NCBI GenBank assembly: GCA_002455915.1
Contig: DKLU01000008.1
Location: 1-7,111, forward strand
DNA from: Chryseobacterium sp. UBA6632
GTDB taxonomy: Bacteria; Bacteroidota; Bacteroidia; Flavobacteriales; Weeksellaceae
Length of the DNA: 7,111 nt
Direction: 5' to 3'
Shown here: positions 1-7,087 of the stretch, in pieces
Numbering within the stretch: position 1 is the stretch's first letter
Layout of the letters: every line of letters begins with the position of its first letter
Program-made: the position numbers and the translations under genes
The notes under the pieces: model-generated
Told to the model about the DNA's origin: nothing
Seen by the model: only the letters and a program-made list of their open reading frames with translations
Databases searched by the model: none

Positions 1-598
1 CCCAACCTCCGCCGGCAAAGGCATCGATGAAACCTCCGATCACCCCTAATCTCGTAAGATTTGTTTTTTTCTTCAGTTTTTTATCCTGTTTGGTTTGAAA
101 AGCATTCGATAAAATTTTAATACCAAGATATAAAGTGTAAAAAGAAATTACCGTTTTTGTGATTTTAGAATAATATTCACCCAGATACGTTAAGGCAACA
201 GCACCGAGAATAGCACCAATTACACCCGGAATAGCTAGTTTTTTAACTAAACTTTTACTTACATTTTTCAGTTTAATATGACTCGCGCTTCCTGCGGCAG
301 TGGTAAAACTTTCCGCAGAATGTATACTGGCACTTACAGCATGCGGCGGAATATTAAGGAATAAAAGCGTCGTTGTGCAAATTACACCATAGCCCATTCC
401 CATTGACCCCGCAACGATTTCGGCCAATACTCCGACGAGCATCATCCAGTAAAAAATATAATCGTCTTTGGCTAATATCACAAAAAGCTCATCCAGATAG
501 CCCATTTCATACATTGAAAAAGCGACAATGAACAAAACGGCAACCGTTACAAAAAGAACGTTGAGCCGTATCTGGATTTTTCTTGAGATCACCATCAT
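1..598 (-). CDS. TauE/SafE-family sulfite/anion transporter (partial, C-terminus beyond window)
   Basis: Integral inner-membrane permease of the TauE/SafE family, which exports or imports sulfite, sulfoacetate or related anions. The N-terminal 199 codons are visible and the frame runs open off the left edge. Residues 12-35 form a hydrophobic segment. Residues 50-85 hold the first family repeat, with GSMGMGYG (64-71) in place of the usual glycine-rich loop, followed by PPHAVSAS and a HSAESFTTAAGSASH stretch (93-107). The second glycine-rich repeat (GGFIDAFAGGGWG) begins just before the edge. The start is ATG at 598-596, overlapping the cysN stop in an ATGA; a second ATG at 595-593 is equally possible. 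Either start implies translational coupling to cysN. Its place at the end of a cysH-cysD-cysN operon suggests sulfite or sulfate-related transport, but the substrate is inferred from context only. Confidence 0.88.
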   Translation of the reverse strand, partial: MMVISRKIQIRLNVLFVTVAVLFIVAFSMYEMGYLDELFVILAKDDYIFYWMMLVGVLAEIVAGSMGMGYGVICTTTLLFLNIPPHAVSASIHSAESFTTAAGSASHIKLKNVSKSLVKKLAIPGVIGAILGAVALTYLGEYYSKITKTVISFYTLYLGIKILSNAFQTKQDKKLKKKTNLTRLGVIGGFIDAFAGGGW

Positions 599-1839
599 GA
601 TAAAATCATTACAGCTCCCACCGTAGAATTGCTGGTTTCATCAATCAGAATAGCACTTCCGGTATCATTATTTTCATTAAAACTGTCAAAAACAAGGGGT
701 GAAGACGTTTTCAATTTTACTTTTACCACCTCGTTCAGTTTGATCCCAGAATAAATCGGAATATTTTCCAGCGTATTGACATCAATTTTATATTCAATTT
801 CTTTGATAATGGTTTTTACAACCTTACTTTTATGTTGAATGAAATATTTATTGCCTTCGTTCAGTTCTTTTTTATCCAGCCAGCAGACAATCGCCTCCAC
901 TTCATTTTCTACTTTGGGCTGATTTTCTGTTTTTACAAAAAAATCGCCGCGGCTTACATCGATATCATCTTGCAAATGTAGTACTGCAGGCTGATTGGCA
1001 AAAACAAGGTCAACTTCTTTTCCGCCTGTTTCAATTTTTGAAATGGTTGTTTCAATATTTTGAGGAAGAATGGTAATTTGATCTCCTTTTTGATAAATTC
1101 CTGAAATAATTTCGCCTGAATATCCTCTGTAATCATGCAGTTCATCCGTTTGTGGACGAATAACATATTGCACCTGAAATCTTGCATTTTCAAGATTCGT
1201 ATTGTCATTTACTTCAACATTTTCAAGGAAATCAAGCAACGTAGGACCTTCATACCAAGGTGTTCTTTCTGATTCATCTACAATATTATCGCCGTAAAAA
1301 GCAGAGATTGGGAAATAATTTACATTTTCCAGCCCAAGTTTCTGAGCAACCAATTGATACTGTGCTTTAATATCTTTAAAAACCTCTTCGGAATAATCAA
1401 CCAAATCCATTTTGTTGATCGCCACCACCACATTTTTCATCTTTAATAAGGAAGCAATGATAGAATGCCTTCTCGTTTGCTCAATAATACCTTGTCTGGC
1501 ATCAATTAAAATAATAATCAGTTGAGAATTAGACGCTCCGGTAATCATATTTCTGGTGTACTGAATATGCCCTGGCGCATCGGCAATAATGAATTTTCTT
1601 TTCGGAGTTGAAAAATAGCGGTAAGCCACATCAATCGTAATCCCCTGCTCTCTTTCAGCTCTCAGTCCATCGGTAAGAATGGCAAGGTCTACTCCATTTT
1701 CGTTTTTATTTTTTGATTGTTTCTCTAAAGCTTCAAGCTGATCAATCAATATATTTTTACTATCGTACAGAAGTCTTCCGATCAGGGTACTTTTCCCATC
1801 GTCTACACTTCCGGCAGTTATAAATCTTAGTATGTCCAC
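595..1839 (-). CDS. cysN: Sulfate adenylyltransferase subunit 1 (ATP sulfurylase GTPase subunit)
   Basis: GTPase subunit of cytosolic ATP sulfurylase. It couples GTP hydrolysis to adenylation of sulfate by CysD, giving APS. With a GTG start at 1839 the protein is 414 aa and begins (M/V)DILRFITAGSVDDGKST, the usual N-terminus of the family. The P-loop is at residues 10-18, the switch region EREQGITID at 62-70, DAPGH at 87-91 and NKMD at 142-145, followed by beta-barrel domains as in EF-Tu-like proteins. There is no C-terminal CysC (APS kinase) domain, so this is not a CysNC fusion. An upstream in-frame ATG at 1896 would add 19 residues encoded by a 7-nt-period repeat; I rejected it because that extension is not family-like. 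It follows cysD after 136 nt of repeat-rich DNA and overlaps the transporter gene by 4 nt. Confidence 0.95.
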   Translation of the reverse strand: MDILRFITAGSVDDGKSTLIGRLLYDSKNILIDQLEALEKQSKNKNENGVDLAILTDGLRAEREQGITIDVAYRYFSTPKRKFIIADAPGHIQYTRNMITGASNSQLIIILIDARQGIIEQTRRHSIIASLLKMKNVVVAINKMDLVDYSEEVFKDIKAQYQLVAQKLGLENVNYFPISAFYGDNIVDESERTPWYEGPTLLDFLENVEVNDNTNLENARFQVQYVIRPQTDELHDYRGYSGEIISGIYQKGDQITILPQNIETTISKIETGGKEVDLVFANQPAVLHLQDDIDVSRGDFFVKTENQPKVENEVEAIVCWLDKKELNEGNKYFIQHKSKVVKTIIKEIEYKIDVNTLENIPIYSGIKLNEVVKVKLKTSSPLVFDSFNENNDTGSAILIDETSNSTVGAVMILS

Positions 1840-1850
1840 GTAAATAATAT

Positions 1851-1878
1851 TAGTAATGAGTAATTGGTAATGAGTAAT
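1851..1878. repeat. Heptamer-period repeat before cysN
   Basis: Four contiguous 7-nt units on the plus strand start at 1851, 1858, 1865 and 1872, all of the form (T/G)(A/G)GTAAT; the second and fourth are identical (GAGTAAT). On the cysN coding strand they read as ATTACTC-like heptamers ending 12 nt before the GTG start. The tract is the near reverse complement of the repeat at 1944-1978, so the two could pair in the cysD-cysN mRNA. Confidence 0.75.
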
Positions 1879-1943
1879 TTCTTTCAAACCGCTCATCTTT
1901 GATAATTTAATATTAAGCTATGAGTAAAATATGCAGGATATTT

Positions 1944-1978
1944 TGCATTACTTATTACTCATTGCCCATTATTTATTA
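1944..1978. repeat. Heptamer-period repeat at the cysD 3' end
   Basis: Five contiguous 7-nt units on the plus strand start at 1944, 1951, 1958, 1965 and 1972, all of the form NN(C/T)ATT(A/G), for example CTCATTG. The last unit includes the cysD stop codon (1978-1976). Positions 1946-1963 match the reverse complement of 1855-1872 at 16 of 18 bases. A small AT hairpin (AAAATAT-GCAGG-ATATTTT, 1926-1944) lies in the intervening loop. Confidence 0.75.
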
Positions 1979-2884
1979 AAAGTAACCTCCTTTTTTTCTG
2001 TCTTCCATTGCGGCTTCCGTTACTTTATCATCGATTCGGGTTTCGCCACGTTCAGAAATTTTAGAAGCAATAATTTCGTTGATCACGCTGTCTAAAGTTT
2101 CCGCATCACTTTCCACAGCTGCTGTACAGGTCATATCTCCGACGGTTCTGTAACGAACTCTTTTCGTAATCACCTCATCACTTTCATCAATCTGAATAAA
2201 ATCCGAAGCGGCAATCAACTGACTATCATATTCAATCACCTCTCTGTCGTGCGCAAAATAAATCGAAGGAAGCTGAATATTTTCTTTTCGGATATAACTC
2301 CAAACATCCAGTTCCGTCCAGTTTGAAATTGGGAAAACTCTTACATTTTCACCTTTATTGATTCTTCCGTTATAGATATTCCACAATTCCGGACGTTGTA
2401 ATTTCGGATCCCATTGCCCGAATTCATCACGAACAGAGAAAAAACGTTCTTTAGCTCTTGCTTTTTCTTCATCTCTTCTTGCTCCGCCGATGCAGGCATC
2501 AAACTGAAATTCTTCGATTGTATCTAATAAAGTATGTGTTTGAAGCCAGTTTCTGGAAGCAAATTTTCCTTTAGGTTCGGTTAAATTTTTCGCTTTAATA
2601 GTATCTTCTACCTTTCTTACAATTAATTCAGCACCCAAATGCTCAGCCAGATAATCTCTGAACTGAAGGGCTTCAGGGAAATTGTGCCCCGTATCTATAT
2701 GTACCAAAGGAAACGGAATCTTCATCGGAGCAAATGCTTTTTTCGCCAGATGAACCAAAGTAATAGAATCTTTTCCACCACTGAAAAGCAAAGCCGGTTT
2801 TTCAAACTGTGCAGCCACCTCACGCATAATGTAAATACTCTCTGCCTCCAGCTGCTCCAGATAATCTAATGTATAATTACTCAT
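1976..2884 (-). CDS. cysD: Sulfate adenylyltransferase subunit 2 (ATP sulfurylase catalytic subunit)
   Basis: Catalytic subunit of the heterodimeric ATP sulfurylase: sulfate + ATP gives APS + PPi, the first step of sulfate assimilation. It has 302 aa, the normal family length. It shows the N-type ATP-pyrophosphatase loop SGGKDS at residues 35-40, HIDTGHNFPE at 62-71, the CIGGARRDEEKARAKER segment typical of CysD, and the conserved C-terminal tail SERGETRIDD...RKKGGYF. The start ATG at 2884 gives MSNYTLDYLEQLEAESIYI, which matches the family N-terminus. It lies 22 nt downstream of cysH and upstream of its partner cysN, so it is almost certainly co-transcribed with both. Nothing is truncated or missing. 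Confidence 0.97.
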   Translation of the reverse strand: MSNYTLDYLEQLEAESIYIMREVAAQFEKPALLFSGGKDSITLVHLAKKAFAPMKIPFPLVHIDTGHNFPEALQFRDYLAEHLGAELIVRKVEDTIKAKNLTEPKGKFASRNWLQTHTLLDTIEEFQFDACIGGARRDEEKARAKERFFSVRDEFGQWDPKLQRPELWNIYNGRINKGENVRVFPISNWTELDVWSYIRKENIQLPSIYFAHDREVIEYDSQLIAASDFIQIDESDEVITKRVRYRTVGDMTCTAAVESDAETLDSVINEIIASKISERGETRIDDKVTEAAMEDRKKGGYF

Positions 2885-2906
2885 TATTATTTGAAAGATT
2901 TTTTAA

Positions 2907-3599
2907 TTAATTTGAATGCAGACCGCATTCTTTATGTGAACTTTCCCACCACCAACGTCCGGCACGAGGGTTTTCTCCAGGTTCAATTGCTCTTGTACAA
3001 GGCTGACAACCCACACTGATAAATCCTTTTTTATGCAAAGGCAAATCCTGAACTTTATTTTTTTCAAGATAATCCAAAACATCCTGATACGTCCAGTGGA
3101 TCAGTGGATTGTATTTGTAAAGGTTTCTTTGTTCGTCCCATTCTAAAACCTGCATATTTTCACGATTCTCAGACTGTTCAGAACGTAACCCCGTGATCCA
3201 TACTTTTGCATTTTCCAATGCACGGTTCAACGGTTTTACTTTTCTGATGAAACAACATTCTTTCCTGTTTTCCACGGAATAATAAAAGGCATTCATCCCT
3301 TTTTCATTCACATAATTTTCGACATCAGAAGCTTCCGGAAAATACACTTCCGTTTTTATTTTATATCTTGAATTGTTTTTGGAAAGTAAATCGTAATGTT
3401 CATAGAAAAGTCTTCCGGTATCTAAAGTAAAGACTTTTATCGGTAATTTCTGACTGAAAATTATATCTGTAATCACCTGATCTTCCTGGCCAAGCGATGT
3501 GGAGAAAACAACTCCCTCTGAGAATTTTTCGGAGATGAATTTCAATCCTTCCTTTGCTGAAAGCTGTTTCAGTATATCTGCATCTTCTGTTGAAATCAT
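2907..3599 (-). CDS. cysH: Assimilatory APS reductase (phosphoadenylyl/adenylyl-sulfate reductase, thioredoxin-type)
   Basis: Cytosolic reductase that makes sulfite, using thioredoxin-class reductant. With the start at ATG 3599 it has 230 aa. The PP-loop-like region FSTSLGQEDQV is at residues 32-42 and TLDTGRLFYEHYD at 58-70. The cysteine pairs C115-C116 and C198-x2-C201 are the [4Fe-4S] ligands that mark APS-using enzymes (EC 1.8.4.10), as distinct from PAPS-specific enterobacterial CysH. The catalytic cysteine is C225 in KECGLH near the C-terminus. APS specificity fits the lack of an APS kinase gene or domain here. The upstream ATG at 3656 is rejected because it overlaps the predicted promoter and adds a non-conserved 19-residue extension. 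It is the first gene of the cysH-cysD-cysN-transporter operon. Confidence 0.94.
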   Translation of the reverse strand: MISTEDADILKQLSAKEGLKFISEKFSEGVVFSTSLGQEDQVITDIIFSQKLPIKVFTLDTGRLFYEHYDLLSKNNSRYKIKTEVYFPEASDVENYVNEKGMNAFYYSVENRKECCFIRKVKPLNRALENAKVWITGLRSEQSENRENMQVLEWDEQRNLYKYNPLIHWTYQDVLDYLEKNKVQDLPLHKKGFISVGCQPCTRAIEPGENPRAGRWWWESSHKECGLHSN

Positions 3600-3621
3600 A
3601 TTTTGTTCATTTGAAGTAATG

Positions 3622-3653
3622 CAAATATCTGATAAAATAATTATCCTACCAAA
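3622..3653 (-). promoter_or_regulatory. Bacteroidota-type promoter of the cysHDN operon
   Basis: On the minus strand a TTTG (3653-3650) is followed after exactly 20 nt by GATATTTG (3629-3622), a one-mismatch fit to the TAnnTTTG -7 element used by the Bacteroidota primary sigma factor. Transcription would start about 5-7 nt further on and leave a short leader before the cysH ATG at 3599. The upstream gene has its own terminator, which supports an independent promoter here. Confidence 0.6.
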
Positions 3654-3660
3654 CAAGTAG
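3646..3660. promoter_or_regulatory. Candidate operator dyad over the cysH -33 element
   Basis: CTAC (3646-3649) and GTAG (3657-3660) form a short inverted repeat with a 7-nt centre that contains the TTTG -33 element. A protein bound here would compete with RNA polymerase. The neighbouring Rrf2 regulator is the natural candidate. The dyad has only four base pairs and may be chance; I do not know the binding motif for this regulator. Confidence 0.3.
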
Positions 3661-3671
3661 ACTAATTATTC

Positions 3672-3704
3672 AAAAAAAAGGATTTAGATCAGTCGATCAA
3701 ATCC
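3672..3704 (-). terminator. Intrinsic terminator of the rrf2 gene, overlapping its last codons
   Basis: On the minus strand GGATTTGATC (3704-3695), loop GACT, then GATC-T-AAATCC (3690-3680) makes a 10-bp stem with one bulged T, followed directly by eight Ts (3679-3672). The left arm and loop lie inside the last codons (Asp-Leu-Ile-Asp) and the stop codon of the regulator gene. It separates rrf2 transcription from the cys operon. Confidence 0.85.
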
Positions 3705-4096
3705 AGTAACGTTTTTTCTTCCAAAATCTTAAGAGATGCATCCCGAACCTCAATCAAAACATCGTGCAAACTGCAGTGATCTTCATTACAGTCGGCACAT
3801 TTTTCATAAAAATTCAGACTTACACAAGGCAGCATGGCGATAGGTCCGTTTACCAAACGTATGATTTTGGCAAGCTTCACATTTTCAGGATTTTCTTTAA
3901 AAAAATATCCTCCCCCTTTTCCCTTTTTACTATCGAGAATATCTGCTTTTTTTAATTCAAGCAAAATATTTTCCAGAAATTTTAACGGAATTTTTTTGTG
4001 TTCCGCGATTTCAGAAATCAGAATAGGCCCGTCATTCCTTTTTTCTACAAGATATGACAGCGCCTTAAAAGCATATTGAGATTTTTTTGACAGCAT
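3689..4096 (-). CDS. Rrf2-family transcriptional regulator (Cys-rich, CymR/IscR-like)
   Basis: DNA-binding regulator of the Rrf2 family, which includes IscR (Fe-S sensing), CymR (cysteine metabolism) and NsrR. It has 135 aa, a usual length. It starts MLSKKSQYAFKALSYL; residues about 25-54 form the helix-turn-helix (ISEIAEHKKIPLKFLENIL), and KKGKGGGYFF (57-66) is the wing. Cysteines C91, C100, C103 and C108, with H107 and H111 nearby, sit where IscR/NsrR-type members hold their cluster ligands, although the spacing differs from E. coli IscR. Adjacency to cysH in the same direction suggests it controls sulfate assimilation; that is inference. It has its own promoter and terminator and diverges from the DUF4268 gene. 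The ATG at 4096 is the only plausible start, since the conserved N-terminus begins there. Confidence 0.92.
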   Translation of the reverse strand: MLSKKSQYAFKALSYLVEKRNDGPILISEIAEHKKIPLKFLENILLELKKADILDSKKGKGGGYFFKENPENVKLAKIIRLVNGPIAMLPCVSLNFYEKCADCNEDHCSLHDVLIEVRDASLKILEEKTLLDLID

Positions 4097-4249: not shown

Positions 4250-4678
4250 ATGTTCAGTAAAGAGGAAGCGCAAAAATTAAAAAAAGAGTTTTGGACGGCA
4301 TTCGGAAAGTCTTTTCCGAGAAAATGGATTTTGTATGATACCAAGATCAAAGATTTCTCGTTTAAATTTTATGCAGATAAGAAAAAAGCAGAGGTTTCTT
4401 TGGATATCGAAATGAAAGACGAAATTTTCCGCGATGCTTATTACAACAAGATTTGGTCTCTCGAAGATATTCTGAAAGATTTTATCGGCGATTTCCATAA
4501 AGAAGAATTTTATACGCTTGAAAACGGAAAAGTCATCAGCAGAATTTGGGTAGAAAAGGAAGGAATTTCGGTTTTCAATAAGAATACATGGCAGGAAGCT
4601 TTTGAATTCTTCGTTGATAAAATGGATGGGTTTGAAAGATTTTATTATGAATATGAGGATTTTATAAAAGATGTTTAA
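4250..4678 (+). CDS. DUF4268 domain-containing protein
   Basis: Small soluble protein of 142 aa with no signal peptide or membrane segment. The whole length looks like a DUF4268 domain: an N-terminal MFSKEEAQKLKKEFWTAFG helix, then a KWILYDTKIKDFSFKFYADKKKAEVSLDIE beta region, and later GKVISRIWVEKEGISVFNKNTWQEAFEFF. No catalytic motif can be picked out and the function is unknown. The family also occurs fused to nucleases or restriction-like domains in other bacteria, but nothing like that is here. The start at 4250 is the only choice because the next in-frame ATG lies after about 50 conserved residues. It is probably transcribed with the small ORF that begins five bases after its stop. Confidence 0.85.
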   Translation: MFSKEEAQKLKKEFWTAFGKSFPRKWILYDTKIKDFSFKFYADKKKAEVSLDIEMKDEIFRDAYYNKIWSLEDILKDFIGDFHKEEFYTLENGKVISRIWVEKEGISVFNKNTWQEAFEFFVDKMDGFERFYYEYEDFIKDV

Positions 4679-4996: not shown

Positions 4997-5818
4997 ATGG
5001 AAGAAAACACGTTCATCTTCACAGATGGAGCCGATCCTAAAATGATTGAAGCTTACCAAAAAGCGCAGGAAACTTTTAAATATTTCTGGAGAGAACTGTC
5101 TTGGGAATACAGAAGAATTATTCCGGCGATGAGCCTTGCCTGTGTAAAAACTTCTTTTTCTGAAAAACATCCCGAAACCGGAGAAGAAATCGTTGAACAT
5201 ATGTGGATCAATGATATTGATTTTAATGGAGATACCATAAAAGGCTACCTCATCAATGAACCCAATAATCTTAGCAGTATTCAGGCAGGTGATTATTTTG
5301 AAATTCCTTTGAATGAGATCAGCGACTGGCTTTTTGCGATGACACCACCTGCTAAAAAACCAAAAGGTCTTTCCAAATTATTTTCTTCTTCAGAAGAACG
5401 TATTCCAAAAGCATACGGAGGATTTACGATTCATAAAATGCGCGCCGATATGAAGTCTGATCAAGAACTTCAGGAGCACGATGCCATGTGGGGGCTTGAT
5501 TTTGGAGATTTTAATCATATTGAAGTGGTTTACGAGCAAACGGAACATCCTGAAAACCTGACTGAACATCCCATGAGTAAAAATATGAAGGAAAGTTTTG
5601 TTACTTTTTTAAAGGATTATCCGAATAAATTGACCAATCTGGACGAGGAAGGTTTATCTCTTCTTCACAAAGAAACAATTGCCGGAAATTTAAGCTCGAT
5701 TGAAGTACTCTTAGAGCATGGAGCCGATAAAAATTTAAAAGCAAACAACGGAAAAACGGCTTTAGATTATGCTAAACAACTAAAATGGGAACATTTGATT
5801 CCTATTTTGCAGAATTAA
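4997..5818 (+). CDS. DUF2314 (YegJ-like) domain protein with C-terminal ankyrin repeats
   Basis: Soluble 273-aa protein using the ATG at 4997 (MEENTFIFTDGADPKMIEAY). The upstream ATG at 4958 would add 13 unrelated residues. Residues about 14-200 form a DUF2314 region: HMWINDIDFNGDTIKGYLIN (68-87) then EPNNLSSIQAGDYFEIPLNEISDW (to 111) gives the family core, followed by KAYGGFTIHKMRA, EHDAMWGLDFGD and a HPMSKNM motif. The last 60 or so residues read as about two ankyrin repeats (EGLSLLHKETIAGNLSSIEV..., GADKNLKANNGKTALDYAK). DUF2314 has no established biochemical activity; ankyrin repeats normally bind other proteins. It carries its own terminator. I see no clear promoter in the 148 bases before it, so a separate start or read-through from 4250 are both possible. 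Confidence 0.85.
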   Translation: MEENTFIFTDGADPKMIEAYQKAQETFKYFWRELSWEYRRIIPAMSLACVKTSFSEKHPETGEEIVEHMWINDIDFNGDTIKGYLINEPNNLSSIQAGDYFEIPLNEISDWLFAMTPPAKKPKGLSKLFSSSEERIPKAYGGFTIHKMRADMKSDQELQEHDAMWGLDFGDFNHIEVVYEQTEHPENLTEHPMSKNMKESFVTFLKDYPNKLTNLDEEGLSLLHKETIAGNLSSIEVLLEHGADKNLKANNGKTALDYAKQLKWEHLIPILQN

Positions 5819-5840
5819 TTTTAATTTGAAAACAATAGGT

Positions 5841-5867
5841 AGAGAAGCTTTCGGGTTTCTCTTTTTT
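5841..5867 (+). terminator. Intrinsic terminator after the DUF2314 gene
   Basis: AGAGAAGC (5841-5848) pairs with GTTTCTCT (5855-5862) around the loop TTTCGG, an 8-bp stem with one G-T pair. It is followed by a T run through 5867, and lies 22 bases after the DUF2314 stop. Confidence 0.85.
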
Positions 5868-5901
5868 GTTTGTAAGTAGCTCCCAAAAAATAAATTTTAT
5901 C

Positions 5902-6118
5902 CGTCTGAATCTCAGAAAACTTTAACCCATTTTAAACCTCTTCGTCTGAACTTCAGATTCTTTAAACCAGTTATGATTCTGCCCGTCTGAACTTCAGAAA
6001 GTCTAAACCAATAGTAGTTCTGTTCGTCTGAGTTCCAGATTACCTAAACTAGTTTAAGTTGGGCTCGTCTGAACTTCAGACGTAGGGAAAATATTTTGAC
6101 TCGTCTGAGACTCAGACG
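5902..6118. repeat. Six-unit tandem array of a 17-bp dyad with 41-bp period
   Basis: The dyad CGTCTGA-N3-TCAGANN begins at 5902, 5943, 5984, 6025, 6066 and 6102, so the first five starts are exactly 41 bp apart and the last step is 36 bp. CGTCTGA is identical in all six, and CAGA at the right arm is also invariant (TCTG-N5-CAGA). Only the last two copies, 6066-6082 and 6102-6118, have full 7-bp arms ending CAGACG. The 24-bp intervening segments are related too, sharing a TAAAC(C/T)A core in units 2-4 and more weakly in unit 1, so the whole 41-bp unit was probably duplicated and then diverged. Forty-one bp is close to four helical turns, which would place all dyads on one face of the DNA. The array lies after the DUF2314 terminator and upstream of the SDR gene. 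No coding frame spans it. The function is unknown: a regulator-binding array, an RNA hairpin series or a genome-wide intergenic repeat are all possible. Confidence 0.9.
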
Positions 6119-6154
6119 TGAATATTTTTTTTCATTAAAAATGAAACATTCACG
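6117..6154. other. Nested inverted repeat adjoining the dyad array
   Basis: An outer stem CGTGAAT (6117-6123) / ATTCACG (6148-6154) encloses an inner stem TTTCATT (6130-6136) / AATGAAA (6140-6146) with loop AAA; a T-rich six-base bulge sits on the left. The outer arm shares its first two bases (CG, 6117-6118) with the last dyad of the array, so the two structures cannot both form fully. It contains a T run and could act in termination or in shielding the SDR gene from read-through. Confidence 0.55.
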
Positions 6155-6190
6155 ATTCAGATACATCATTCGTTGATCCAGCTACTTTTA

Positions 6191-6212
6191 CCATCTTCCA
6201 TCTTGCCATCTT
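6191..6212 (+). repeat. CCATCTT triple repeat upstream of the SDR gene
   Basis: Three identical CCATCTT units at 6191-6197, 6198-6204 and 6206-6212, the third displaced by one G. The tract is pyrimidine-rich on the coding strand and its end merges with the likely -7 element. The surrounding sequence (CTTTTACC before, TTTGTATCAT after) closely resembles the DUF4268 promoter region. Confidence 0.7.
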
Positions 6213-6214
6213 TG
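6207..6214 (+). promoter_or_regulatory. Candidate -7 element of the SDR gene
   Basis: CATCTTTG differs from TAnnTTTG at one base and would give a leader of roughly 25-30 nt before the ATG at 6248. The same TTTGTATCAT string follows the exact -7 element of the DUF4268 gene at 4242. No well-spaced -33 TTG was found; TTG at 6173-6175 is about 31 nt upstream. Confidence 0.4.
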
Positions 6215-6247
6215 TATCATCATATAACAACAATAAAATATTTAAAA

Positions 6248-7087
6248 ATGGAAACAAAAAAAGTATGGTTTGTGACAGGAGCTTCAAAAGGATTAGGATT
6301 ATCTTTAATTAAAAAATTACTGGAACAAAATTATCGTGTGGCTGCCACCACAAGAAATGTACATTCATTGATCGCTGAAATCGGAGAGATTTCGGAAACA
6401 TTTTTACCGCTTGAAGTAAGTTTAACCGACAATGAAAATGTAAAATCGGCCATCGAAAAGACGGTTCAACATTTCGGACAGCTAGACGTTGTGGTAAACA
6501 ACGCAGGTTACGGTCAACTGGGAACTTTGGAAGAGCTTTCTGATGAAGAAGCAAGAGCTAATTTTGACGTAAATGTTTTTGGAACATTGAACGTGATTAG
6601 AAACGCAATGCCTCATCTCCGCCTACAAAAATCCGGACACATCCTAAATATTTCGTCTATCGGTGGATATTCAGGAAACTTTCCGGGATGGGGAATTTAT
6701 TGTTCGACAAAATTTGCCGTGGCAGGTTTAACGGAAGCTTTGGCTGAAGAAGTAAAAGACTTTGGGGTGAAAGCAACTGTGGTTTATCCTGGATATTTCA
6801 GAACCGATTTTTTATCCAAAGAATCTGTCAGAACTCCGGAAAATTCAATTCCTGAATATGAAGCAGCAAGAAACTCTGAGCAGGCTCACCTTGATGAAAT
6901 CAATGGAAATCAGCCCAACGATCCCGACAAAGGAGCAGAAGCTATTATTGTCATCAGCGAAGTTGAAAATCCGCCTGTACATTTCCTTCTGGGAAGCGGA
7001 ACTGATGAGTTTTTGAATAATAAAATTAAAACCATTACGAGCGATGCAGAGAAATGGAGTGAACTGACGTATTCTACTGTGATTTAA
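6248..7087 (+). CDS. SDR-family NAD(P)-dependent oxidoreductase
   Basis: Cytosolic short-chain dehydrogenase/reductase of 279 aa with a Rossmann fold. The cofactor motif TGASKGLG is at residues 10-17, NNAG at 84-87, and the catalytic set Ser137 / Tyr151 / Lys155 in NISSIGG...YCSTK. PGYFRTDF follows after the fold core. Arg36 at the end of the second strand (TTRN) favours NADPH over NADH. The C-terminal portion fits the classical SDR type annotated as carbonyl or keto-reductases; the substrate cannot be read from sequence. The ATG at 6248 is chosen because METKKVWFVTGAS gives a normal N-terminus. The upstream TTG at 6173 would add 25 residues translated from promoter and repeat DNA. It is a single gene isolated between the dyad array and the window end, with no partner gene visible. 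Confidence 0.93.
   Translation: METKKVWFVTGASKGLGLSLIKKLLEQNYRVAATTRNVHSLIAEIGEISETFLPLEVSLTDNENVKSAIEKTVQHFGQLDVVVNNAGYGQLGTLEELSDEEARANFDVNVFGTLNVIRNAMPHLRLQKSGHILNISSIGGYSGNFPGWGIYCSTKFAVAGLTEALAEEVKDFGVKATVVYPGYFRTDFLSKESVRTPENSIPEYEAARNSEQAHLDEINGNQPNDPDKGAEAIIVISEVENPPVHFLLGSGTDEFLNNKIKTITSDAEKWSELTYSTVI

Follow-up and report, generated by a model that had tools for sequence, protein, structure and literature searches.

What purpose is served by six phased palindromes between two genes of a Chryseobacterium contig, and what might recognize them? The window (the whole 7,111-nucleotide stretch of DNA analysed, from contig DKLU01000008.1 of Chryseobacterium sp. UBA6632) contains such a phased array between a gene for a DUF2314 and ankyrin protein and a short-chain dehydrogenase (SDR) gene, both on the same strand. 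Its features are as follows; XY denotes the two variable letters of each half-site (see below), and G and L numbers are our labels for genomes and loci.

4997..5818, + strand: upstream neighbour, gene for the DUF2314-ankyrin protein
5841..5862, + strand: terminator-like hairpin of the DUF2314-ankyrin gene, ahead of the array
5902..6118, no strand: whole phased array, six dyads, XY = TG
5902..5918, no strand: dyad 1, CGTCTGAATCTCAGAAA
5943..5959, no strand: dyad 2, CGTCTGAACTTCAGATT, 41 bp on
5984..6000, no strand: dyad 3, CGTCTGAACTTCAGAAA, 41 bp on; aligns with a CC dyad of G026
6001..6024, no strand: spacer 3, alignable with the G026 spacer although the adjoining dyads differ
6025..6041, no strand: dyad 4, CGTCTGAGTTCCAGATT, 41 bp on
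6066..6082, no strand: dyad 5, CGTCTGAACTTCAGACG, a perfect palindrome, 41 bp on
6102..6118, no strand: dyad 6, CGTCTGAGACTCAGACG, 36 bp on; also scores as a terminator-like hairpin on the + strand
6148..6247, + strand: conserved block preceding the SDR gene, shared by G005, G103, G077 and G026 with or without an array
6248..7087, + strand: downstream neighbour, SDR gene

The dyads start at 5902, 5943, 5984, 6025, 6066 and 6102, that is, at four intervals of 41 bp followed by one of 36 bp, leaving four spacers of 24 bp and one of 19 bp. A motif scan and shuffles confirmed these positions and intervals, which had been proposed in a reading of the sequence alone: TCTGANNNTCAGA with at most one mismatch matched six times in the window, always inside the array, against a mean of 0.38 in shuffled sequence, and six or more matches occurred in 0 of 200 shuffles. 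The right arm TCAGA, put forward as common to all six dyads, holds in five of them; the dyad at 6025 has CCAGA, its sole mismatch. The outermost C-G positions can pair in the last two dyads only. Additionally, a strict test of the region 5819-6247, which overlooks less perfect dyads, detected a chain of three dyads at 41 bp, and an equally spaced chain of three appeared in 0 of 1000 mononucleotide shuffles.

G077 (same genus as G001, Chryseobacterium edaphi) encodes a counterpart with 95% identity to the DUF2314-ankyrin protein. Pfam matches and inspection of the open reading frames (ORFs) revealed no Cas gene among the genes of the window, and the neighbours of the array gave weak candidate defence matches only. 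Elsewhere in the window, a DUF4268 protein (4250-4678) weakly matches the candidate defence family PDC-S11, and a cluster resembling sulfate assimilation (595-3656; cysN, cysD and cysH, named by eye from the ORFs) accompanies what looks by eye like an Rrf2-like regulator (3689-4096).

A two-dyad scan of 84,980 genomes returned 31 stretches, including two Chryseobacterium loci at 41 bp, L017 and L029; most of the others were unrelated repeats. In the genomes of these two loci the motif, with GG allowed in place of TG, forms 41-bp clusters, and further clusters were found, among the matches listed, in 118 genomes of the genus. The motif does recur in related genomes at 41-bp spacing, a check that the sequence-only reading had called for. 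In 26 curated arrays (counted without L099, L103, L104, L106 and L124), 58 of 70 successive intervals measured exactly 41 bp and seven measured 83 bp, the rest being 35, 36, 40, 48 or 68 bp; the units called number 96, of which at least two (L093 3259 and L095 3431) are apparently spurious yet were kept. Furthermore, 54 two-dyad segments align without gaps over 58 columns in one direction, head to tail. As to other tandem palindromes, two loci from uncultured Parabacteroides (L016 and L018) contain TCTGAGACTCAGA at a 41-bp period with well-kept spacers, and no DUF6261-like gene (see below) was recognised by eye among the adjoining ORFs. Unrelated tandem palindromes, GTCTGAAAGTCAGAC, occur in L020 (Massilia atriviolacea), L002 and others, with a 58-bp period in Massilia and similar matches in Hydrogenophaga.

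Because the variation falls in two positions per half-site, the dyads can be described by the framework GTC-XY-AAnTT-Y'X'-GAC, where XY is mainly GG, CC or TG, with TC in loci found later. The window array shares both family marks, this framework and the 41-bp period. Columns 5/13 of the dyads are GC in 33 cases, CG in 17, TA in 15 and AT in one, and columns 6/12 are GC in 51 and CG in 20. Among 72 distinct dyads, 94.0% of arm cells were paired against 77.4% after shuffling, 62 cells against 22.3 were changed on both sides, and the covariation score was 0.424 against 0.135, with slid versions at most 0.150; none of these three values was reached in any of 500 shuffles. Symmetry partly guided the selection of the 17-mers; this raises the paired share and leaves the letters used unaffected. 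Spacers, in turn, diverge while the dyads hold their complementarity through two-sided changes. Typing by XY failed for two of 50 arrays; L333 and L340 were not entered, and the dyads of L340 look asymmetric. In the open-licence literature, as far as its accessible text extends, we found no description of DUF6261 or of such arrays in Chryseobacterium or Flavobacteria.

Comparison of orthologous sites showed that arrays keep their place while their letters change. The window's site is also occupied in G026, where an array of CC instead of TG dyads precedes the same SDR gene, and the spacer beside dyads 3 and 4 is still alignable between the two (AAACCAAT..TAGTTCTGT). The site is patchy: G005 and G103 keep the gene order but lack the array, and G077 has neither array nor SDR gene there. 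The 3' side of hemH (ferrochelatase, Pfam) bears four types in four genomes, TG in G077, GG in G042, CC in G136 and TC in G158; likewise, the site 3' of an MFS gene is TG in G001 and CC in G013, G096 and G154. The mutL site carries five GG dyads in G001, another five in G104 and a single one in G013. Switching of XY with flanks or spacers still alignable is the pattern expected from a trans-acting reader of changing specificity, and the orthologous positions speak for long residence rather than movement. Within genomes, the Y letter agreed in 19 of 26 pairs, a value reached by 203 of 10000 permutations; this is a tendency, far from complete. A fresh insertion at the window's site had been considered, given that G005, G103 and G077 have no array there and that a 71% similar array is found at another place in G077, and was dropped because G026 has an orthologous array and the G077 array belongs to the shared hemH site, so that movement is unneeded.

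The sequence-only reading had held the palindromes to be under constraint and to suit a protein-binding array, and both views gain support from arms that co-vary and switch together at orthologous sites. It had also reckoned that arms varying as freely as the spacers would speak against function; orthologous arms do vary, but in complementary pairs.

A number of arrays stand immediately upstream of a gene for a DUF6261 protein (PF19775). Within the genus, this family is present in 56 of 118 genomes (119 matches in this first set) and in 21 of 53 others; across the phylum the figure is 12 of 395. The idea that arrays recur beside one gene family thus holds for DUF6261 and not for the window's own array, since the window has no DUF6261 gene and tblastn found no DUF6261 remnant in it. 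We fetched 90 of the 119 loci (30 plus 60), which contain phased dyads of varied sequence ahead of the gene, and 86 were tested, the other four being too short or near a contig end. Phased dyads were significant (p<=0.05) in 55 of 86 upstream regions, 15 of 86 downstream regions and three of 86 gene interiors; some of the 31 upstream regions that fail are, by eye, clear arrays of three to five dyads. Dyad pairs in the upstream regions peak at lags of 20.5-21 and 41-42 bp, i.e. every two helical turns (28, 41, 42, 33 and 40 pairs at lags 20.5, 21, 41, 41.5 and 42, against about three in shuffles), which fits the earlier suggestion that the sites face one side of the DNA.

The association extends to arrays remote from the gene. 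A two-dyad covariance model at E<=1e-5, run with stricter filters that lose weak matches, detected arrays in 30 of the 171 genomes (from 173) that had a DUF6261 test, in each at least once away from any DUF6261 match. DUF6261 is present in 29 of these 30 genomes as compared with 77 of 171 overall (hand tally; Fisher 5e-11, uncorrected for kinship); at E<=1e-6, it is present in 25 of 26 array genomes (Fisher 3e-9, likewise uncorrected). Among 53 genomes that played no part in forming the idea, six of seven array genomes had DUF6261 against 21 of the 53 (p 0.012, with kinship again uncorrected). The exception is G154, with arrays and no DUF6261 match.

Agreement in type between the DUF6261 array and those elsewhere is partial. 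Genomes G107, G062, G013, G118 and G020, whose DUF6261 array has TCCCAANTTGGGA, contain more clusters of that dyad elsewhere; no such clusters occur in G001, G104 and G060, and G048 and G077 have single matches inside ORFs. G096 and G003 break the match, with CC arrays but DUF6261 arrays that look like another type, and G077, the closest relative, has TG and GG arrays, yet its only DUF6261 belongs to another subfamily and is accompanied by an unrelated array. A locus beyond the main genus, L286 (G514), has four CTTCGTACGCATACGAAG-like palindromes of quite different sequence at 42 bp before a DUF6261 gene. Loci L326 (G120) and L333 (G066) contain arrays directly beside an XRE-type gene and no DUF6261, and have possibly lost it. 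Defunct DUF6261 loci were sought with tblastn in the window and in 14 loci lacking a known DUF6261; the best match had only E 0.048, and the idea was discarded. One DUF6261 query found no match among plasmid or phage records.

Two residues of DUF6261 track XY, with one exception. Residues 8 and 11 (L115 numbering) were the sole fully covered columns separating GG (10) from CC (4) proteins with L157 left out: GG loci have D8 with K or R at 11, and CC loci H or Y at 8 with G or A at 11 (L154 and L345 were typed by eye). Two or more separating columns arose in five of 1001 relabellings, also without L157. This locus, from G026, is a clear exception, with D8/R11 as in GG loci and, by eye, CC dyads, and no column separates the types when it is counted in. 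In two lineages with TC loci (L112/L113 and L343), residues 8 and 11 are H and S. Structure prediction gives DUF6261 an all-helical model (mean pLDDT 87.4) in which residues 9-11 form a short helix. A fold search with this model in the PDB and BFVD gave no match at E<=0.001, sequence comparison found no PDB relative, and no DNA-binding fold was recognised; the net charge is near zero.

The palindromes could act as DNA or as RNA. DUF6261 upstream regions fold better than shuffles on both strands (mean z -3.66 sense and -3.40 antisense; 71 of 86 below -2 in sense), and the difference between strands is not significant (p=0.12); raw energies lean towards the antisense strand, in keeping with its base composition. 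The window array behaves similarly (z -4.65 and -5.79). Mismatches in the dyads comprise 170 G-U and 216 A-C, with no G-U excess; composition predicts still more A-C, so there may be a weak G-U preference. Additionally, in the DUF6261 subfamily with MKI..LSTKDLAT, the array lies by eye just before, not after, TTTG-N19-TATATTTG, which we take to be the promoter. Folding, mismatches and promoter position favour DNA sites over RNA, and the series of RNA hairpins, which the sequence-only reading had offered as its other option, lacks strand-specific support.

In this same subfamily, the gene on the far side of the array points away from it and differs from locus to locus, and the array often separates the DUF6261 gene from a varying defence-type gene. 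Among 20 such neighbours, hand-picked from 42 loci as a long ORF across the array, 15 contain defence-system domains, one more falls below the cut-off and four have none. The 15 domains are:

Vsr, AbiH, Mrr, DUF4365, AIPR/AbiU, AAA_15 or AAA_21 (three), DUF4062, nSTAND1, PIN_8 (two), TIR, GIY-YIG and PDC-S71

No effector was found among the ten downstream neighbours checked, three of which gave weak HTH matches. At the junction of the varying defence gene with the conserved array block, L171, L175, L178, L170, L173, L172 and others have palindromes CCGTATTTCTACGG and TTACGGTTTTCCGTAA, possibly REPs of a Y1 transposase.

From these comparisons, DUF6261 is the best candidate reader of the arrays. 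The six dyads of the window would then be DNA sites repeated every four helical turns and bound cooperatively by a sequence-specific protein, probably of the DUF6261 family. A short N-terminal helix of the protein, through residues 8 and 11, may read XY, several subunits may occupy one face of the DNA, and the resulting filament or loop could set the output of the adjoining promoter, here that of the SDR gene. If the specificity of the reader shifted, selection would drive the arrays dispersed through the genome to follow. That the window array is an operator-like array of DNA sites read by a DUF6261-type protein seems to us about evenly poised between right and wrong. The interpretation of the sequence-only reading is partly supported.

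We propose more tentatively, and with doubt predominating, that the DUF6261 family forms a new class of protein with sequence-specific DNA binding, in which residues 8/11 of the N-terminal helix would read the palindromes and the protein would coat arrays spaced by whole turns and kept at fixed sites. A change of code would cause arrays to be rewritten letter by matching letter, and one branch would serve as the anchor of exchangeable antiphage defence genes. If true, an uncharacterised protein family would gain a function and a DNA code, and the natural specificity switches GG, TG, CC and TC would make protein-DNA co-evolution testable within one genus. The repeats would also form a family whose partner is not a transposase, a repeat-plus-reader system of a new kind, and the defence branch would give a lead on how defence genes dock at, or are controlled beside, a conserved module.

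Other explanations were weighed against binding by DUF6261. The dyads might be operators or upstream activating sites of another regulator, an XRE-type HTH protein or a sigma-54 activator, with DUF6261 merely one of its targets. An HTH_3 (XRE-type) gene directly precedes the array in several DUF6261 loci, the arrays of L326 and L333 adjoin such a gene with DUF6261 absent, and sigma-54-like motifs stand, by eye, shortly before DUF6261 in L138, L139, L154, L157 and L345, TGGCA-N-GC motifs that we presume to resemble sigma-54 promoters. We consider this rather unlikely, given that L115, L118, L120, L121 and L130 have clear arrays with no HTH gene alongside and that no second gene came up, short of a genome-wide search, that tracks the arrays as DUF6261 does. 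An array working through its transcript, with hairpins that stabilise mRNA, terminate transcription or act as RNA antitoxin units ahead of a protein gene, would explain why DUF6261 upstream regions and the window array fold better than shuffles, why dyad 6 scores as a terminator and why a promoter-like TAnnTTTG lies, by eye, ahead of the array in some DUF6261 loci; tandem repeats of 30-50 nt upstream of a toxin gene, as in type III toxin-antitoxin systems, offer a likeness. Conversely, sense and antisense z-scores are alike, G-U does not exceed A-C, the array precedes the promoter in the MKI..LSTKDLAT subfamily and the dyad is equally symmetric as DNA. As no significant strand difference emerged, we keep RNA hairpins merely as a rival, and an improbable one.

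Two further explanations were considered. Neutral minisatellites, their look maintained by slippage and gene conversion, would account for copy numbers that vary between orthologous arrays, as at the mutL site, and for the decay of some arrays; they are strained by the covariation, by spacers that diverge beside dyads that stay complementary and by the predominance of exact 41-bp intervals, and we regard them as highly improbable. The dyads could otherwise be a selfish repeat of REP type that a transposase, for instance Y1 (RAYT-type), moves or homogenises. They resemble the CGTC-tagged REPs, which are extragenic and known from Bacteroidetes too (PMC3733652). Of 30 placed solitary arrays, 28 lie between tandem or convergent genes, and arrays of G104 at separate sites give the impression of spacer features in common, both of which suit a dispersed repeat. 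However, Y1_Tnp occurs in 104 of 118 genomes, so the presence of the transposase does not track the arrays, and G048 has arrays with a single marginal match (E 4.6e-4); a RAYT as required partner was rejected on the former count. No transposase was seen beside the arrays inspected, although one Y1_Tnp gene (PF01797, E 6e-8) adjoins a DUF6261 array of another type (L177). The orthologous positions of the arrays also speak against such a repeat, and the features that define REPs (tag pairing, stem, loop, tail and orientation) fail here, making this explanation quite unlikely as well.

CRISPR loci combine near-identical repeats of at least 23 bp with unrelated spacers and Cas genes. The arrays share with them short palindromic repeats and regular spacers, but their repeats are of 17 bp and their 24-bp spacers align with each other. 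In type III toxin-antitoxin systems, tandem repeats upstream of the toxin gene are transcribed as an RNA antitoxin, with a terminator between the two. Tandem units stand upstream of DUF6261 genes; no strand-specific RNA signal was found, and the window array has no such gene next door. Operator and activator arrays of bacterial regulators are generally known for phased dyads near promoters and matched changes of half-sites; here, by comparison, tens of arrays keep the same spacing, sites frequently lie 3' of genes and the proposed reader is without a known DNA-binding fold.

The CGTC-tagged REPs are the nearest published repeats: short extragenic palindromes starting with CGTC or TGTC (CCTC also counts as a terminal motif), dispersed in Bacteroidetes among others and without a dedicated transposase (Di Nocera et al. 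2013, PMC3733652). That source gives them an unpaired tag, a stem of 8-9 bp with A-T pairs in positions one and two, a loop of 4-5 nt and a tail that is mostly CCA; head-to-head dimers predominate, head-to-tail ones are negligible and clusters are rare. Most GG and TG dyads of our arrays also begin with CGTC or TGTC, and CC dyads often with TTTC. Against what that source describes, however, the TC of the tag (columns 3-4) pairs with GA (columns 14-15) in 69 and 70 of 72 dyads, CGTC is followed by GG, TG, CC or TC instead of A-T pairs, the odd dyads have a one-base centre, and copies stand head to tail at 41 bp. A parallel in organization is offered by GTAG REP/RAYT systems (REPtrons), in which palindromes are tied to one protein family at source loci, have copies elsewhere and co-evolve with the protein. 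In our arrays, the linked protein is DUF6261, predicted to be all-helical and not a Y1 HUH transposase, and the arrays are few, phased and situated at orthologous sites.
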